This document shows, one piece after another, positions 2,850 through 37,265 of a DNA stretch of 37,265 nt (within the stretch, counting starts at the first letter, position 1; each line of letters begins with the position of its first letter). Position numbers and translations under genes: made by a program. This stretch comes from Bacteroidota bacterium (GTDB lineage: Bacteria > Bacteroidota > Bacteroidia > Bacteroidales > Prolixibacteraceae), in contig JAUXUF010000075.1 of the NCBI GenBank assembly GCA_030684645.1, positions 1-37,265 of the forward strand. Direction: 5' to 3'. The notes beneath the pieces are model-generated. The model made no database searches and had not been told where the DNA came from. It saw only the letters and a list, made by a program, of their open reading frames with translations.

Positions 2850-4206
2850 TATAAATATTTGAATATCAATAAAATAAGCGAAAAATAAGTATAAAATAAT
2901 TTGTTTAAGACCTTAAAAATCAGTAATTTAAAAGATTATTCCGTAATTTTTTATTTATGATTCCTAAGGTCTGTGATTCGGTTAAGTGTTTTATTATCAG
3001 CATATTAGAAAACGAGGTTTTCGATATGCTAAATAAGTCTCGTAAAGATTTTATTGTTATCGTTCTTTGGCATATTTTGAGCATCAAAGGTAGGATAAAT
3101 TTCTTGCAACTTGGGCGGTTCAGTCCTCTTACGGAGCAAACTTACCGGAATCATTTTGAGAAAGGGTTCGACTTCCTTTCCTTCAACAAGCAGTTGATCA
3201 ATCAGGTAGTTTCTGGTGAAAGGATTATAGCGTTTGATCCAAGTTATATTCCCAAGGCAGGCAAGTCAACTTACGGTAGAGGTAGATACTGGTCTGGTGT
3301 CGCCGGTGCAGCAAAATGGGGTTTGGATATATGTGGTTTTGCAGTGGTTGACATTGTGAATAACACTGCACTACATTTAAAAGCATGGCAAACACCATCT
3401 GCCGATGAATTGGCTGAAAAGGGATTGAACCTACTTTCCCACTATGCAAGTCTTGTAACCGAAAACGCAGAACAGTTTAAATTTTTTTCAAACTATATTG
3501 TAGCCGATGCCTTTTTTTCTAAAAGACCATTTGTTAAGAAAGTACAGTCAGCCGGACTTGAGTTCATTAGTCGGTTAAGAGATGACAGTGTGTTGATGTA
3601 CAAGTTCACGGGTGACAGAACGGGTAAGAAAGGAGCTCCAAAGAAATTTGATGGTTTGGTTGATGCTTACAACTTTGACCCCAATCGATTTTCATTAGAT
3701 TTCTCTAACGAGGAGATTACGATCTACTCATTGGTCGTTTACTCGAAGGCATTCAAAATGGACATCAAGTTGGCCATTGCAATTTTTTACAAAGACGGAA
3801 GAGAGACGGCAAGAAAACTATTTTTCTCTACTGATTTGAAGCAAGCCGGTGAAAAAATTGTTCGCTATTATCAGGCACGTTTCCAGATTGAATTTCTGTA
3901 TCGTGATGCAAAGCAGTTTACTGGTCTGAATAACTGTCAGGGAAGAAGTAAAAACAAATTGGATTTTCACTTCAATGCAGCTCTTACGGCTGTAAATCTG
4001 GCAAAACAAGACTGGTTGGCAACCAAAGGTAAAGTGGATAAACCATTCTCAATGTCCGATTATAAAACAATGTATAACAACACTTTGATGCTCGAACGAT
4101 TTATGTGCATGTTTGCTATAAACCCAAACACACCAAAAAATCAAAAAATTGTCAAAGAACTATTGGATTATGGCAAAATTGCCGCTTAAAATTTACCGAA
4201 GTATTG
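2829..4206 (+). mobile_element. IS4/ISH3-like insertion sequence, 1378 bp, complete
   Basis: The element carries one transposase gene on the plus strand and has matching ends. The left end 2829-2849 and the reverse complement of 4186-4206 agree at 18 of 21 positions (outer CAAT, inner TAAATTTTAA). The pentamer TATTA directly flanks both sides (2824-2828 and 4207-4211). The transposase has the IS4-type YREK signature. A 5-bp target duplication is shorter than in most classical IS4 groups and points toward ISH3- or IS1634-like groups. The element sits inside the phage tape measure gene in opposite orientation. The ends and reading frame look intact, so it may still be mobile. The outer boundary could shift by one base because G precedes TATTA on both sides. 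Confidence 0.85.
2957..4189 (+). CDS. IS4-type DDE transposase
   Basis: The 410-residue protein cuts and joins DNA at the element's ends. The likely catalytic triad is Asp94 (in IAFDPSYIPK), Asp184 (in IVADAFFSK) and Glu312. The signature Tyr305-x2-Arg308-x3-Glu312-x6-Lys319 is the YREK motif of IS4-related transposases. The long region between the second Asp and the Glu is consistent with the beta-strand insertion domain of IS4 enzymes. The first ATG is at 2957; a second at residue 24 (3026) is equally possible because no clear ribosome site is seen. It is the only gene of the element. The exact subgroup (IS4 or ISH3) needs a database comparison. Confidence 0.88.
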   Translation: MIPKVCDSVKCFIISILENEVFDMLNKSRKDFIVIVLWHILSIKGRINFLQLGRFSPLTEQTYRNHFEKGFDFLSFNKQLINQVVSGERIIAFDPSYIPKAGKSTYGRGRYWSGVAGAAKWGLDICGFAVVDIVNNTALHLKAWQTPSADELAEKGLNLLSHYASLVTENAEQFKFFSNYIVADAFFSKRPFVKKVQSAGLEFISRLRDDSVLMYKFTGDRTGKKGAPKKFDGLVDAYNFDPNRFSLDFSNEEITIYSLVVYSKAFKMDIKLAIAIFYKDGRETARKLFFSTDLKQAGEKIVRYYQARFQIEFLYRDAKQFTGLNNCQGRSKNKLDFHFNAALTAVNLAKQDWLATKGKVDKPFSMSDYKTMYNNTLMLERFMCMFAINPNTPKNQKIVKELLDYGKIAA

Positions 4207-4211
4207 TATTA
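4186..4211 (+). repeat. IS right terminal inverted repeat with target duplication
   Basis: The right end lies at 4186-4206 and begins within the last codon of the transposase gene. It is followed by the second TATTA copy at 4207-4211. The IS supplies the last five residues and stop of the truncated N-terminal tape measure frame. Confidence 0.8.
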
Positions 4212-5338
4212 ACATCAGCACCATTTGAAAGAAGCGCGTCAATGAAGTTAGCCATGTTCCCGGATTCGTCTTTCATTGCTTTTCCCAGCTCTCTAATCTC
4301 GCGGGTCCATTTATTGTGAACGATTGACCATTTGTTATTCGCCTCTTCCATCATTCGCCCGTAAGCGGTCTCCATTGCCCCCGCTGCTTTGGCGGTTTCG
4401 TTCAGGTCTTCAGCCGCGCCTTTTGCTTTGTCACCTGTCAAGGCTAAAACAGCACTCACGCCCTCAACGTCCGGGATCAGTTTTTTCAATTCGATTTGAC
4501 TACCACCCGCCATTTCACGAACCTTATTTAATCCATCCTGATAGGTCATCGTTTTACTCCAACCATCACCTAATACAGCGGTCATGTTCACAATTGAACT
4601 TCTGATCTGGGTCATTGCCTGAGCTGTAGGTGTTCCTTGCTTAGTGATAGTCTGTAGTGCTGCAAAAATCTGTTCAAATTCGATATTGTTTGCAGCTGCT
4701 AAAGGTGCAACCTGAGCGATATTTGAAGCCAATTGGCTGAAAGTAGTCTTTCCCCTCTCAACTGTTTTAAACATGATGTCTGCAACAAAATTGGCCTTAT
4801 CCGAAGACAATCCCCATGCGTTTATAACTGTGGTCAAACCATCCGCGGCTGTCAGTGTATCGGTCACTCCGGCAACCGCCGCTTTTGATGCAATTGACAA
4901 TAATTCAAGACCAGCCGCACCATCATGCCCGGCTGAAACGATCTGGTAATATGACTTTGCCAGTTTTATCGCATCATCTGGACCATTAGCGGCCATGTCA
5001 ACGATCTTTTGGGATATCCCCTCAAAATCATCCTGAACAGCCTTTGAAATAGTTTGCACCTCGCGCATGGCCATTCCAAAGGCCTTTTCAAACTCCAAAG
5101 CCTCATCGGCCAATTGTTTGAATTTAAAAGCTGCTGCCAATGCTCCTGCTGGTCCTATAAGACTAGGGATATTGATTCCCATTTTATCAAGGGTATTTCC
5201 AACCTTGCCGAAAGCATTGTCCATAACCGAACCGCTGTTTGCAGCCTGTTTTGCAATCTTTTGTAGGTCTTGATCTATTTGTTGCGCCTGTTGATGAATC
5301 TTATTGTCGATTTCAGCAACGATTTTTAAATTGCCCAT
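4193..5338 (-). pseudogene. phage tail tape measure protein, N-terminal part (TP901-like), split by an IS
   Basis: Residues 1-376 are phage-encoded; the last five residues and the stop come from the IS end and target duplication. Residues about 80-300 match the TP901-type tape measure core: an ISQKIVDMA-like helix, a SAGHDGAAGLELLSIASKAAVAG segment and a GLTTVINAWGLSSDKANFVADIMFKTVERGKTTF-like segment are typical (AAG...A.TTA..AF..S...A..VAD.L). A glycine/alanine-rich hydrophobic stretch lies at about 58-72. The start is 2 bases downstream of the gp10-like gene's stop, so the tail genes form a tight operon. Together with 734-2818 it forms one broken 1073-residue gene. Confidence 0.85.
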
Positions 5339-33514: not shown

Positions 33515-33542
33515 TGAGCCATAAAATCATAACTATTGAGCT
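33515..33542 (+). repeat. TGAGCY repeat pair, third locus
   Basis: TGAGCC at 33515 and TGAGCT at 33537 lie exactly 22 bp apart, with ATAAAA following the first as in the copies at 35031 and 36046. It is next to the broken 3' end of the DUF1801 gene. The rest of 33257-33514 holds nothing I can name. Confidence 0.6.
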
Positions 33543-33546
33543 CTAT

Positions 33547-33780
33547 TTAAAAAATCAGGTAAAAACCTGGAAATACAAAGAGCGAACAATGGTTTTTGAA
33601 TGCTGCGAAATACGCGAGCATACCATGAAATTTAAATGCCGGCATTTGGTAACTAATTACTTCAACAGCTCCCGGAGCAGCCTTTCGGATTGCCTGCCTT
33701 AGCGACTCTAACGTGATTCTGGCCTGATCGGTCTGCAGCGCAAGGTATTCATCGATAGTTTTAAATTCTGGTTTTAACAT
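33547..33780 (-). CDS. DUF1801 protein, C-terminally truncated
   Basis: The 77 residues (DEYLALQTDQARITLESLRQAI, then GAVEVISYQMPAFKFHGMLAYFAAFKNH) match the N-terminal two thirds of DUF1801 (frataxin-like fold, YdhG/YyaP type), usually 110-130 residues. After KNHCSLF the family sequence stops and a short unrelated tail ends at 33547, next to the TGAGCY repeat. The gene has apparently lost its 3' end at the repeat. It may be non-functional. Confidence 0.65.
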   Translation of the reverse strand: MLKPEFKTIDEYLALQTDQARITLESLRQAIRKAAPGAVEVISYQMPAFKFHGMLAYFAAFKNHCSLFVFPGFYLIF

Positions 33781-33827: not shown

Positions 33828-34868
33828 CTAAAAGTAAGTTTTCACCGCGAATTCAAATTGACTGATGAAGATTTTTTTAAACGTCGCAATATTGTTTTGC
33901 TCATAAAACAAAAGCATTGCTTTTTTGTACTCAACCGAATCAATGGTCCGGAAAGAGATTGGGCAGTAGTCATTATTCATAAGTATCGCATTGCTTACAA
34001 TCCTTGCCGTCCGTTTATTTCCGTCACCAAACGGTTGAATATAGGATATGATCAAAAGCGCAAGTAATGCTTCTTCAAACACATTTTCGCGATTGTTTAC
34101 AAGTTCACATAAGTCGTTCAATGCTTCCATGATTTGGAATTCGTTATCCAATGGTTTGTAATTTGTTCCTGAAATTCCGACTCTTCGTTTTCTGATATTG
34201 CGGTCAACTCCCAAATCTTTGATCAACAGACTATGAATATCTTCAATCCGGGGAATGGTTAATGGTATCACATAGTTCGGATTCTCAATGATAAAATCGA
34301 TTGCTTCCTTATGATTGAGAAGCATAGTTGCTTCATCCTTTGTCTTGCCCTGTGCGGTTTCTTTGTCTTTCAACAATCGTTCGGTTTCCAGCAGCGAATA
34401 GGTGTTCCCTTCAATTTGCGACGACTTCCAGCTCAAATCAATAGCCAAACGCTCCAGTTCTTTCTTGTATTCCGCATCCGTCAGTTCCGATACGTTTTCT
34501 TTGTGTTTTTTTTGCAGTTCAACCAGTTGCAGTTGCTCTTCAGTAGTAAACAAGTTCGTTTTGCTCAAAACGTCCTTTATCAGTGATAAATTGAAACGTT
34601 CATTGATCACCCGTTCATCAATTTCTTTTCCGAAATATTTATCCACATCAATTGGGTATAGCAATGCATAAGCAGGATCAACGATGTATTTTGTCCCACG
34701 GCCTTTGCCTATCGGTAAAATCAGGTTTTCTGAAATTAATTTAGCTAAAATCCTTTTAACCGTAGCATATCCCAATTCGGATTTAAGCCCATTATGAATT
34801 TCTTTCGAGGAAAGTGAAGGGTTTGCCTTGATGTATTCGAGAATATTTTTGCTTTTATCGTTGGCCAT
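33828..34868 (-). CDS. Fic-domain protein with N-terminal winged helix; motif His replaced by Gln
   Basis: The 346-residue protein has a winged-helix-like segment (about 8-62), a helical linker and a Fic domain (about 170-300). Fic enzymes transfer AMP or other groups using the motif HPFxDGNGRxxR. Here it is QPFGDGNKRTAR, with Gln278 at the catalytic His position and Lys at the second Gly. A self-inhibitory motif of the S/T-x3-E-G/N type is present at 149-154 (SSQIEG). I believe some Bacteroidota relatives also have Gln here, but cannot verify it. The upstream space contains the TGAGCY array; autoregulation by the wHTH is possible. Confidence 0.85.
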   Translation of the reverse strand: MANDKSKNILEYIKANPSLSSKEIHNGLKSELGYATVKRILAKLISENLILPIGKGRGTKYIVDPAYALLYPIDVDKYFGKEIDERVINERFNLSLIKDVLSKTNLFTTEEQLQLVELQKKHKENVSELTDAEYKKELERLAIDLSWKSSQIEGNTYSLLETERLLKDKETAQGKTKDEATMLLNHKEAIDFIIENPNYVIPLTIPRIEDIHSLLIKDLGVDRNIRKRRVGISGTNYKPLDNEFQIMEALNDLCELVNNRENVFEEALLALLIISYIQPFGDGNKRTARIVSNAILMNNDYCPISFRTIDSVEYKKAMLLFYEQNNIATFKKIFISQFEFAVKTYF

Positions 34869-34891: not shown

Positions 34892-35075
34892 TGGCTCACA
34901 AATATATTAATTGTGGCTCACAATACAACAAAAATGAGCTTTAAATTAACCTATTTTGAGCTTTAATTTATTTCTCCGGAATTTTTATGGCTCAATTGAT
35001 AGCAATTTATGGCTCAAAATGTAGAACTAATGAGCTATAAAAGCAAGGTTGGTGAGCTATGTTTTGTAATGAGCC
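34892..35075. repeat. array of nine TGAGCY motifs, in pairs 22 bp apart
   Basis: Motifs (TGAGCY or its complement) start at 34892, 34914, 34935, 34957, 34988, 35010, 35031, 35053 and 35070. The first eight form four pairs, each exactly 22 bp apart (two helical turns), and pairs alternate in orientation. The array fills the space upstream of the Fic gene. The remainder of 34869-35175 contains a palindrome and no convincing gene. See also 35998-36083. Confidence 0.75.
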
Positions 35076-35088
35076 AGGTTTAAACCTG
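35075..35088. repeat. 14-bp perfect palindrome
   Basis: CAGGTTTAAACCTG is a perfect palindrome overlapping the last TGAGCC motif of the array by one base. It could be an operator or a chance word. A 50-codon plus-strand frame begins just after it at 35094 but overlaps the methyltransferase 3' end; I do not call it a gene. Confidence 0.5.
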
Positions 35089-35175
35089 ACAAAATGAAAA
35101 ATGACAGAATTAGTGTATCATTTATTGTTTCAACCGGGCAGCACGAACAGGTTCATTTAGTATTAACAACGAAAG

Positions 35176-35865
35176 TTATAACGGCATCTTCTTTAGAGAA
35201 ATACGCACCCACATTGGTATTCCGGATAGCTTTATTTTTTCTATAAAGTAGTTATCAGCAAAACTCGTCTTTTCTATGATCGAGATGATTTCCTCTATCC
35301 GGTAACTCTTCTTTACCGATTCCCGGACTGCCAGGGGGCCAAATAACCGGCGGATCCAATTCAGCTGCCGAAGATTGTTTTTCAAGGCGATTTGAAATTC
35401 TTCTTTGTTGATATCTCTGTAAGCCTCGAAAAGATAGGCAGACCGGCCTGCCTTAAGAATCCGGTAAATTTCTTCAAGTGATTCCTCCGGGTAGTCCCAA
35501 AGATAAAAACTGCCAGAACAGGTGATCACAGAGAAAAAATCACTGTCGTAGTTTGTTTGCCGAATTGAGCCTACCTGCAGGTTTACCGGTATGTTTTGCA
35601 GATTATTCCTTGCCAGTTCAATCATTGCGTCAGAAATATCAAGTCCGAATAATTCGATCTCCGGGTTTCGCAGATGGATTTCGGCAAGTAACCTGCCCGG
35701 CCCTGTCCCGATATCCAGCAACGGTCCTTTTACCGTTTTGGAAACAAGATCAGATGCAATCTCTTCCAGCCGGCTTCGAATGGGCTCTGCATCCAGAAAT
35801 TTGTCGTATAAGCTTGCGCCGAAGCGTGCCAGTTTAACGAAGTATCTTTCACCTCTGGTTTTCAT
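35176..35865 (-). CDS. class I SAM-dependent methyltransferase
   Basis: The 229-residue protein has the Rossmann-type SAM motif I LLDIGTGPGRLL (about 50-61), motif II with acidic residue GLDISDAMIELARNNL, and a later VITCSGSFYLWDYPEESLEEIYRIL segment of the UbiE/COQ5-like group. The substrate is unknown. It is the only gene between the two TGAGCY loci, and a diverged copy of the array lies upstream of it. Confidence 0.85.
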   Translation of the reverse strand: MKTRGERYFVKLARFGASLYDKFLDAEPIRSRLEEIASDLVSKTVKGPLLDIGTGPGRLLAEIHLRNPEIELFGLDISDAMIELARNNLQNIPVNLQVGSIRQTNYDSDFFSVITCSGSFYLWDYPEESLEEIYRILKAGRSAYLFEAYRDINKEEFQIALKNNLRQLNWIRRLFGPLAVRESVKKSYRIEEIISIIEKTSFADNYFIEKIKLSGIPMWVRISLKKMPL

Positions 35866-35942
35866 AGAACCTCCTTTTTTACTGTAATATTGTGGATGCT
35901 TGTCTATACGACTACGTCAATCAATCAGGTTGCAGAATTCGA

Positions 35943-35958
35943 GTGTAAAAAATTACAC
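35943..35958. promoter_or_regulatory. short inverted repeat upstream of the methyltransferase
   Basis: GTGTAA and TTACAC flank four A, centred about 85 bases upstream of the methyltransferase start. It lies 40 bases from the TGAGCY copy and may be an operator. Confidence 0.3.
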
Positions 35959-35997
35959 ACGTTGATTTTTTGTTTCAATTTGGTTGCCGTAAAATTT

Positions 35998-36083
35998 ATT
36001 TATAGCACACAAGATTGCAATTTAAAGCTCAAAATGCAGGATTTAGGAGCCACAAAAGAGTGGTTGGTGAGCTCTGTTTTTTA
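35998..36083. repeat. diverged copy of the TGAGCY array
   Basis: The segment aligns without gaps to 34983-35068 at an offset of 1015 bp; I count about 67 identical of 90 bases when flanks are included. Motif equivalents at 36003, 36025, 36046 and 36068 keep the 22-21-22 spacing. Some motifs are decayed (TAGCACA at 36003). It lies 135-220 bases upstream of the methyltransferase start and 25 bases beyond the end of the next gene. Confidence 0.7.
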
Positions 36084-36107
36084 TTGTTATCGTTGGAAAC
36101 GAATAAA

Positions 36108-37265
36108 TCAAAATTTAAGTTTTAATTGGCCTTCAGCTTTTTTAAGTTTCCAGCAATCATTCCCTACATGTTGGGCAATATCTTCCAAAACACTCAATAT
36201 CGTTTGATGTTCAGGCGTAATTCCGTTCTTGAGCAATGGTAGAATAGCAAAAACAATCTCCTCAATATCAGGATTATGGCCTTCTCTTCCCTTTCGAGTT
36301 AAATAACTCAATAAATAGTATCGTATCCTTAACCTAACATCAATATGAGTTTGAAACTTTGTGTTCTTTTTTATCGTGAATTTATCGGTAGTTTCATCAT
36401 AATCGAAAGTGCTCATCAGTAGAGGTGTTAAATCGGTATATTCCTTTTTCAGTAAATCAAGGAACCCAAGCTCAAGGCCTTTAATAATCAATTCATCGTT
36501 TATCTGTTCGAGTGTTGCACCACTATTTTTAGCGATGATACCTTCAATGGTTTGCATAACTATTTCGGCAATGTCCATTCCAAGATTTGCTTTAAGAATA
36601 GCACGTGGTTTACGCACTTTACGGAAGTTGATGATCAACTGACCCGAAAGAACGGTGAACGGATTTTGACGTTTTTTGAAACTTGTTTGTCCATTTTTTT
36701 GGGCGACAGCACCGATATATTCAAAACCGCAATTTTCGGCAGTTTCGATAATCAGGTGCCAAAACTCAGGATCTTTATGTGCAAACACGAACGACAACCA
36801 ACGGTCAAATTTAAGCACACGATACATTTCTTTAATGCTTTGGGCGATAAGGCTATTGTAGTCTTCCTTGCTCTTATGATTTTCACCGCCTTCAATGGCT
36901 TCCTGATTATAATCGTCCTGTGTAACTTCGAGGTCAAGCCAAGCATTCCACATCACAGATAGATCAAGATAGGGGATTTTTTTGCCATAAGGTGGGTCGG
37001 TATAGATGTAATCAACGCTTTCTTTCGGAATCCATTTCAGGTTCGTTGCCGATGCTTTACGGATTGTTGCATTGCCAATGGTATCCTTATTTATATAGCC
37101 TGCCATTTCCAATTTTGCTCCTGCAACCTTCCTATATCTTAGTTCATAATATTTCATCAAGTCAATATCCATTGGATTAGGAGCAATTCTATATCGATAA
37201 TAACGAAATGCAGCAGCATCACCTTGACCATCCTTTGTGGCAATTTCAGAAGTGTGGTAAGTTAA
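36108..37265 (-). CDS. adenine-specific DNA methyltransferase-like protein, 5' end outside window
   Basis: The frame is open to the window's right edge (first codons visible: LTYHTSEIATKDG), so the gene is partial and its N-terminus is missing. The motif SVDYIYTDPPYGKKIPY with DPPY is motif IV of N6-adenine or N4-cytosine methyltransferases, followed by LSVMWNAWL, seen in DNA methylases with N-terminal zinc ribbons. Residues after about 240 of the visible part are not obviously catalytic. It may be part of a restriction or defence system continuing outside the window. I cannot choose the system type. Confidence 0.75.
   Translation of the reverse strand, partial: LTYHTSEIATKDGQGDAAAFRYYRYRIAPNPMDIDLMKYYELRYRKVAGAKLEMAGYINKDTIGNATIRKASATNLKWIPKESVDYIYTDPPYGKKIPYLDLSVMWNAWLDLEVTQDDYNQEAIEGGENHKSKEDYNSLIAQSIKEMYRVLKFDRWLSFVFAHKDPEFWHLIIETAENCGFEYIGAVAQKNGQTSFKKRQNPFTVLSGQLIINFRKVRKPRAILKANLGMDIAEIVMQTIEGIIAKNSGATLEQINDELIIKGLELGFLDLLKKEYTDLTPLLMSTFDYDETTDKFTIKKNTKFQTHIDVRLRIRYYLLSYLTRKGREGHNPDIEEIVFAILPLLKNGITPEHQTILSVLEDIAQHVGNDCWKLKKAEGQLKLKF

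Follow-up and report, generated by a model that had tools for sequence, protein, structure and literature searches.

Fic proteins that carry a helix-turn-helix (HTH) domain and repress themselves are known in principle. CccR of Yersinia pseudotuberculosis is described as a Fic protein with an HTH that represses its own promoter through repeats near the -35 and -10 boxes; it is a secreted toxin, forms a dimer, retains the catalytic histidine, and combines a C-terminal HTH with one inverted repeat with a 26-bp spacer (PMC9755527). DNA binding is reported as shown for CbFic2 of Coxiella burnetii and as not shown for SoFic, both of which have an HTH domain; in CbFic2 the HTH is C-terminal and the Fic motif has its His, and the part of the report available to us describes no specific operator (PMC10628234). 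A survey of Fido proteins suggested that HTH domains fused to Fic may regulate fic expression, with no operator sequence or test given in the text available (PMC2686095). Clade D2 of the Fic/Doc proteins of Khater and Mohanty (45 sequences) has Gln in place of the catalytic His and the consensus Qx[FY]x[DE][GV]NKR, and its usually single-domain members are described, in the text available, with no mention of an operator (PMC4454073). Here we analyze a 37,265-nt stretch of DNA from a Bacteroidota bacterium of the Prolixibacteraceae (contig JAUXUF010000075.1, here called the window), in which a gene for a winged-helix/Fic protein (wHTH-Fic) is preceded by an array of phased TGAGCY motifs.

Like CccR, the window protein is an HTH-bearing Fic protein with repeats at its own promoter, and repression is predicted for it here; unlike CccR, it has an N-terminal winged helix, four half-sites per operator and Gln at the catalytic His position, so that the CccR-type pairing of a C-terminal HTH with a single inverted repeat is absent. 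The His-to-Gln change is shared with clade D2, whose consensus fits the window protein (QPFGDGNKR) and seven of eight plasmid relatives (the eighth, L165, has Ile at the G/V position), whereas the N-terminal winged helix departs from the single-domain description of that clade. We propose, with a probability of roughly 85% judged from comparative sequence data, that a solitary winged-helix/Fic protein acts through this array, as its operator, to repress its own promoter. A literature search of titles and the beginnings of abstracts found no description of this operator or of wHTH-Fic cassettes. Within the literature searched, the operator of four half-sites, the way it co-varies with an N-terminal winged helix in a His-to-Gln clade, the apparent inheritance of operator plus gene as a unit, and the viral copies without the gene are all new.

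A proposed four-half-site operator at the likely wHTH-Fic promoter

TGAGCY occurs 42 times in the window, compared with 27 ± 5.6 times in 100 shuffled versions, all of which stayed below 42. In the region preceding the Fic gene the motif stands on the minus strand at 34893 and 34915, on the plus strand at 34935 and 34957, again on the minus strand at 34989 and 35011, and on the plus strand at 35031, 35053 and 35070. A preliminary description made from the sequence alone had reported a helically phased array of alternating orientation, and we confirm that this array is real, the alternation going by pairs. What had been overlooked is the repeat unit, a fixed 70-bp dyad of four half-sites, RGCTCA-22-RGCTCA-20-TGAGCY-22-TGAGCY (distances start to start, hereafter 22/20/22). 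The half-site consensus extends over ∼11 bp (about TGAGCYRYAWW), and each spacing is near two helical turns.

Two perfect quads lie 5' of the Fic gene. Operator A, the nearer (34893..34962), has half-sites at 34893-34898 and 34915-34920 on the minus strand and at 34935-34940 and 34957-34962 on the plus strand; operator B (34989..35058) lies 96 bp upstream of it. A degenerate third quad ∼1 kb further upstream, operator C (36004..36073), matches at 22 of 24 positions and is possibly a relic or an auxiliary site; a methyltransferase gene is found about 139 bp downstream of it. Downstream of the Fic gene, beside the end of a DUF1801 fragment, a single exact 22-bp pair on the plus strand forms half operator D (33515..33542). 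A gapless duplication of about 90 bp at an offset of 1015 bp had also been reported; it corresponds to an 88-nt ungapped repeat, 76% identical, between 34984-35071 and 35999-36086, that is, between operators B and C. The earlier count of at least six pairs at 22 bp is reached only with the degenerate pairs of operator C, there being five exact pairs, and of the three intergenic regions said to carry the motif all three do, the third (33515-33542) lying outside the 34892..36083 interval originally assigned to the array.

In the 5.2-Mb genome of this organism (a draft assembly of 408 contigs) there are five exact same-strand 22-bp pairs, all in the window cluster (reversed-pattern control, 0), and three quads with up to three mismatches, all in the window (control, 0). 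Such genome-wide counts and their controls, here and in the viral contigs discussed below, rule out a chance origin of the array.

The array is positioned at a likely promoter. TAnnTTTG is the Bacteroidota -7 promoter consensus, and the element TATATTTG (34899..34906, minus strand), which fits it, adjoins the gene-side outer half-site of operator A. Among 75 operators (defined below), the outer half-site on the gene side has a TAnnTTTG-like element next to it in 41, and the one on the far side in none. Since the element is placed in this way, a bound protein would cover the promoter. In 10 of 81 loci, the window among them, full operators stand in tandem at distances of 82-84 or 94-97 bp, or ∼8 or 9 helical turns; among these loci, L032 and L033, and likewise L026 and L030, are near-identical pairs (L numbers are our locus identifiers). 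A second quad outside the promoter region was seen in the window (operator C), in L057 (22/24 positions) and in L074 (20/24), and once in shuffled copies of all 81 sequences.

Linkage of the operator to the wHTH-Fic gene in other bacteria

Relatives of the Fic protein were collected by a protein search that used no operator information, and the best 80 of 122 (58-75% identity) were retained; most are contigs of metagenome-assembled genomes (MAGs), so their species labels may be wrong. At least one exact 22-bp pair was present in 73 of the 80 loci, and each of the 73 had it no more than 420 bp upstream of the gene match. With L006 (upstream sequence cut off) and L069, L070, L074 and L077 (other half-sites) left out, 75 loci remained, containing 74 distinct operators, 56 of them exactly 22/20/22; the remaining 18 deviate by 1 bp at one or two of the spacings. 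When 78 loci were scanned without reference to the motif, 22/20/22 again emerged as the best geometry (mean score, 29.2), followed by 22/18/22 (27.8) and 22/22/22 (26.9), both of which are shifted readings of the same dyad; geometries outside the top eight scored 19.1 ± 0.8 and shuffled sequences 18.3 ± 2.2. At exactly 22/20/22, 59 of the 78 loci exceeded the 99% point of shuffles.

The reverse test covered 395 Bacteroidia genomes, counting an operator at no more than one mismatch with exact spacing and a gene at E ≤ 1e-40. The operator was found in 32 genomes (control, 0), the gene in 42 and both in 25, such that the gene is present in 25 of 32 operator-bearing genomes versus 17 of 363 others (Fisher p = 2.6e-22); two of the 25 (L091 and L114) have broken genes. 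We inspected the upstream regions in all 17 gene-only genomes: L127, L128, L140, L144, L145 and L149 have a TGAGCY operator in which one spacing deviates by 1 bp or a half-site has decayed (at least 20/24), while L135, L142, L148, L150, L153 and L155 have a different half-site. In bacterial genomes, then, the motif pairs are linked to Fic genes and do not occur at background frequency, the two respects in which the preliminary description had stated that its reading could fail.

The flanks of the 80 loci were compared using 366 open reading frames (ORFs) of at least 90 aa, among which no family recurred in three or more loci except an ATP-binding cassette (ABC) ATPase family in 6. Beyond that family, no conserved partner gene, such as the adjacent antitoxin gene of a FicTA toxin-antitoxin module, was found among ORFs of this size; antitoxin genes are often smaller.

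The recognition helix and the half-site

The AlphaFold2 model of the window protein (mean predicted local distance difference test score [pLDDT], 91.8) has a confident N-terminal winged helix, with a recognition helix at residues 34-46 (34731..34769, minus strand). Residues 35, 38 and 39 track the half-site across an alignment of 117 proteins (111 distinct), in which loci were classed as TGAGCY type if at least 20 of 24 positions matched with spacings within 1 bp; L006, with too little upstream sequence, was kept apart from these classes. All 103 TGAGCY-type loci have Ala, Ser, Thr or Pro at residue 35, Lys at 38 and Arg at 39, and 10 of the 13 non-TGAGCY loci have a combination at these residues that is absent from the 103. 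Seven of the 10 have another half-site arranged at 22/20/22 or within 1 bp of it: TGATAT (L069), TGATYG (L070, middle spacing 21), TGTCCB (L142 and L077, which have the same protein), NNGACC (L148), GGATAA (L153, one site GGAAAA) and GATWRT (L155). The rest are L151, a doubtful case, and L074 and L154, for which no operator with this geometry was seen.

On the protein tree the TGAGCY label needs seven changes, two of them forced by strongly supported branches, with L074 and L154 assigned to their nearest kin by assumption; L148 is, with strong support, sister to a TGAGCY locus. These patterns are suggestive of a system in which a changed recognition helix is mostly accompanied by a changed half-site while the geometry is kept. 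More distant relatives are found on plasmids, of which eight were fetched from 279 records with a match (L159-L166). The seven that are proteobacterial (28-32% identity) have upstream repeats of their own that are not 22/20/22, several of them no better than shuffles.

We propose that the four half-sites of about 11 bp in each 70-bp operator present one helical face, two per dyad arm, and that four winged helices, as a tetramer or as two dimers, would bind together. Once bound, the protein would occlude the -7 element together with the likely start site, turning the gene off, and tandem operators 8-9 turns apart, perhaps together with sites C and D, would tighten repression. Binding, repression, a tetramer and cooperativity are what we infer here from the position of the site, its near-fixed geometry, its linkage to the gene and the half-site changes that go with the helix. 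Of the interpretations offered in the preliminary description, which overall is partly supported, the reading of the array as a multi-site operator bound by the winged helix of the Fic protein itself draws strong support from this comparison of linkage, promoter position and helix/half-site co-variation; the tetrameric regulator suggested there would suit four phased half-sites. A four-site operator of this kind is unusually rigid, and the co-varying pairs of helix and half-site provide a natural set for studying how DNA specificity changes under constant architecture.

A Fic domain without the catalytic histidine

The wHTH-Fic gene (33828..34868, minus strand) encodes a 346-aa protein with the N-terminal winged helix, a Fic domain and a class II-type inhibitory motif, SSQIEG. 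Both profile and fold place it in the Fic/Doc fold family (PF02661). Class II Fic proteins have an N-terminal inhibitory motif of the form (S/T)xxxE(G/N), and the corresponding residues are SS[QE]IEG in 80 of 81 proteins and SAQIEG in L060, all of which agree with that form. The Fic core motif QPFGDGNKRTAR (residues 278-289; 34002..34037, minus strand) has Gln278 where active Fic enzymes have His, so that the invariant His of the AMPylating motif HxFx[DE]GN[GK]R is replaced. Although the seeds used in searching for relatives did not include the core motif, residue 278 is Gln in 117 of 117 aligned proteins (111 distinct), a count that excludes L143 (in-frame stop, with Asp at this position), L156, where the motif could not be located, and fragments, L158 (Gln) among them, and Gln is also found in all eight plasmid relatives fetched. 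Glu153, Asp282, Asn284, Arg286 and Arg289 are likewise invariant in 117 of 117.

Structural matches include human FICD and BT_2513, at about 20% sequence identity; human FICD has tetratricopeptide repeats, not a winged helix. The absence of winged-helix neighbors from this structural comparison is meaningless, because its rows cover mainly residues 41-346. In what is the most speculative part of our proposal, the Fic fold, having lost the catalytic His to Gln with the other core and inhibitory residues that we checked invariant, may serve as a nucleotide-binding sensor and not as an AMPylating enzyme. On the autorepressor reading, a widespread His-to-Gln Fic group with no function described in the literature searched would gain a concrete role, that of a DNA-bound self-regulator.

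Inheritance of operator and gene

Among 48 pairs of loci with at least 80% nucleotide identity (26 loci), homology begins a median of 4 bp outside the outer half-site (interquartile range [IQR], -6 to 0), and the median position of its end is 3 bp past the stop codon (IQR, 0 to 22). In four pairs it reaches more than 60 bp further at one side, with L032/L033 homologous throughout, and 3 of the 48 pairs have other homology of over 60 bp in their flanks. From these limits, operator and gene seem to travel together and to be inherited as one unit. An inverted copy of the outer end lies just past the stop codon in 11 of 78 loci, versus 1 of 78 on the control strand and 0.7% of shuffles.

In a few cases the unit perhaps moves as a cassette. 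L015 contains three attC-like repeats (937-1085, 2203-2345 and 5092-5195) and L020 contains five (1-136, 886-1036, 2154-2302, 3266-3412 and 4206-4360); in both loci the Fic gene is immediately flanked by one such repeat on either side. A model built from five of these eight repeats matched only L015 and L020 of 80 loci, leaving the window and the other 78 loci without a match. On folding, one L020 site forms a strong DNA hairpin (z = -5.2) and another a weaker one (z = -2.3). L012 has an attC-like structure just before the Fic gene by a loose criterion that matches elsewhere too; its stem was unmatched in 100 shuffles, and the site folds no better than shuffles (z = -1.0). Isolated stems unreached by 100 shuffles were found on the 5' side of L012, L024 and L049 and on the 3' side of L025, and most other tested stems were within the shuffle range. 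An integron integrase (TIGR02249) scored over the cut-off in none of 12 genomes, which are draft assemblies, 11 of them MAGs by title; matches below the cut-off mean little, since 13 of 14 control genomes have them too.

Operator copies in viral contigs

The exact quad is present in 34 IMG/VR contigs (L179-L212), compared with 1 for the reversed pattern and 0 for a 24/20/24 spacing. Only 4 of the 34 have the Fic gene; the other 30 lack it over their whole records, which may be fragments. These 30 loci comprise 19 distinct quads. A tRNA gene is no more than 10 bp away in 19 of the 30 (12 of the 19 distinct quads) but not in the other 11, 11 of the 30 lie between tRNA-Lys and tRNA-Ile, and 25 of the 30 overlap no ORF of at least 100 aa; the quad of L210, inside a long ORF, may be chance. 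The half-site extension, which was outside the search pattern, fits that of the Fic operators (A at +8 in 96%, A/T at +9 in 100%), and a -7 element was found at 0 of 38 ends of viral quads. When two tRNA anchors were taken from quad-bearing contigs, blind to the quad itself, the quad was next to the anchor in all 7 contigs matching the one and in 6 of 7 matching the other (three with 1-2 mismatches; L217 had none), which are not 13 independent cases, because near-identical contigs are included.

The 26 of the 30 records that were searched whole (four near-duplicates left out) have one exact quad each, and 8 of these have an overlapping second register with 2-3 mismatches. A Bacteroidota host is indicated by L187, which encodes a protein with a Por secretion-tail domain. 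No named relative of these contigs was found through the one L191 protein searched, and the nucleotide matches among those listed are confined to a single ∼95-base stretch, a tRNA-Ser gene where annotated. Fic relatives occur on 28 phage records, none covering 80% of the query.

The viral copies raise the question of why large phages keep a promoterless host operator inside tRNA clusters. It is possible, strictly as a hypothesis, that they are decoys. We tentatively suggest, as somewhat less probable than its opposite, that promoterless operator copies amid the tRNA genes of large Bacteroidota viruses titrate the wHTH-Fic repressor during infection, the Fic protein being a ligand-sensing, four-handed pseudoenzyme repressor and its system having a role, defensive or selfish, whose disturbance benefits phages. 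If true, one private DNA address would be common to this solitary Fic switch, which spreads horizontally, and to its viruses. No phage decoy operators in tRNA arrays were found in titles and the beginnings of abstracts.

Alternative explanations

Several observations weigh against autorepression through this operator. Three operators and a half site in the window are not all accounted for by one promoter. The motif-agnostic scan left 19 of 78 loci at or below the 99% point of shuffles when the geometry was exactly 22/20/22, and in many of these one spacing is 1 bp off or a half-site has decayed; the operator of L151 is doubtful, and none of 22/20/22 geometry was found for L074, L152, L154, L156 or the fragment L158. 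The co-variation has its own exceptions: three of the 13 non-TGAGCY loci (L066, L150 and L152) have the usual helix residues, as does L135, which has TGAGCG half-sites and is counted among the 103, and no such operator was found for L159 from Bacteroides finegoldii, the nearest plasmid relative (63% identity over residues 38-346). Seven of the 32 operator-bearing bacterial genomes lack the gene at E ≤ 1e-40; clear gene remnants lie beside the site in L089 and L109 and a weak one in L092 (E = 0.006), and none was found beside it in L087, L098, L101 or L157. Finally, the operator is not exclusive to the Fic gene, because 30 of 34 viral contigs have it without the gene, so the predicted link to Fic genes that held in bacterial genomes did not extend to the viral contigs.

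It is improbable that the array is primarily the end of a mobile cassette, its repeats being recombination ends and not an operator. The limits of homology at the outer half-site and the stop codon, the inverted outer ends and the attC-like repeats around the Fic gene in L015 and L020, with the looser structure in L012, would suit such a cassette, and to this extent the suggestion that the array marks the end of a mobile unit has some merit; the window copy, however, has no such repeats, the attC-like model fits 2 of 80 loci, and no integrase passed the cut-off in the 12 genomes searched. Recombination ends alone would also leave unexplained the 22/20/22 quads, a promoter at the gene-side end only, half-sites that follow the helix and the phased tandems. 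Still less likely is a site that belongs to another regulator with the Fic gene as only one target, which would accommodate the Fic-less viral contigs and the 5 of 32 bacterial genomes in which neither a Fic gene nor a strong remnant was detected (one has a weak remnant), but the organism's own genome has the site only here, half-site changes accompany changes in the Fic protein's own recognition helix, and the proteobacterial plasmid relatives have different repeats in the same place. We give scarcely any credence to a role as RNA, in which the paired arms would form a hairpin in a transcript leader. The left and right arms are complementary, as in any dyad, but, because the -7 element adjoins the last half-site, transcription would probably start beyond most of the site, and hairpin loops do not require near-rigid spacings. 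At the variable Y, stem partners show no excess co-variation (Fisher p = 0.03 and 0.64, versus 0.007, 0.007, 0.04 and 0.03 for nonpartners), and on this ground the hairpin was rejected.

Other features of the window and of related loci

A lone extra TGAGCC (35070..35075, plus strand) lies 17 bp past the last half-site of operator B, off the 22-bp phase. The DUF1801 ORF (33547-33780, 77 aa), whose end is ∼5 bp from half operator D, matches only positions 4-41 of the 85-position family model and is thus C-terminally cut. A DNA methylase-like gene (36108-37265) with PglX-like similarity in PADLOC runs off the window end. No second Fic gene or remnant was found in the window beside operator C or pair D, the only other frame match scoring below 0 bits.

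In L101 (725-2778), where the operator (one mismatch, 1501-1570) is present without the wHTH-Fic gene, the site lies downstream of a nucleotidyltransferase/HEPN-like pair; downstream of the site itself are a small HTH protein and a different, second Fic protein containing HCFANGNGR. We assigned these names by sequence inspection. The plasmids of L160-L166 encode the proteobacterial wHTH-Fic relatives, which have Gln in the core motif and upstream repeats such as ATCGTTTCA, TTGCGCCTA and TGGCGCGA. Upstream of the Fic gene in L031 (774-2495), direct repeats at regular spacing (about 73 bp) form an array with more than 20 units that resembles clustered regularly interspaced short palindromic repeats (CRISPR).
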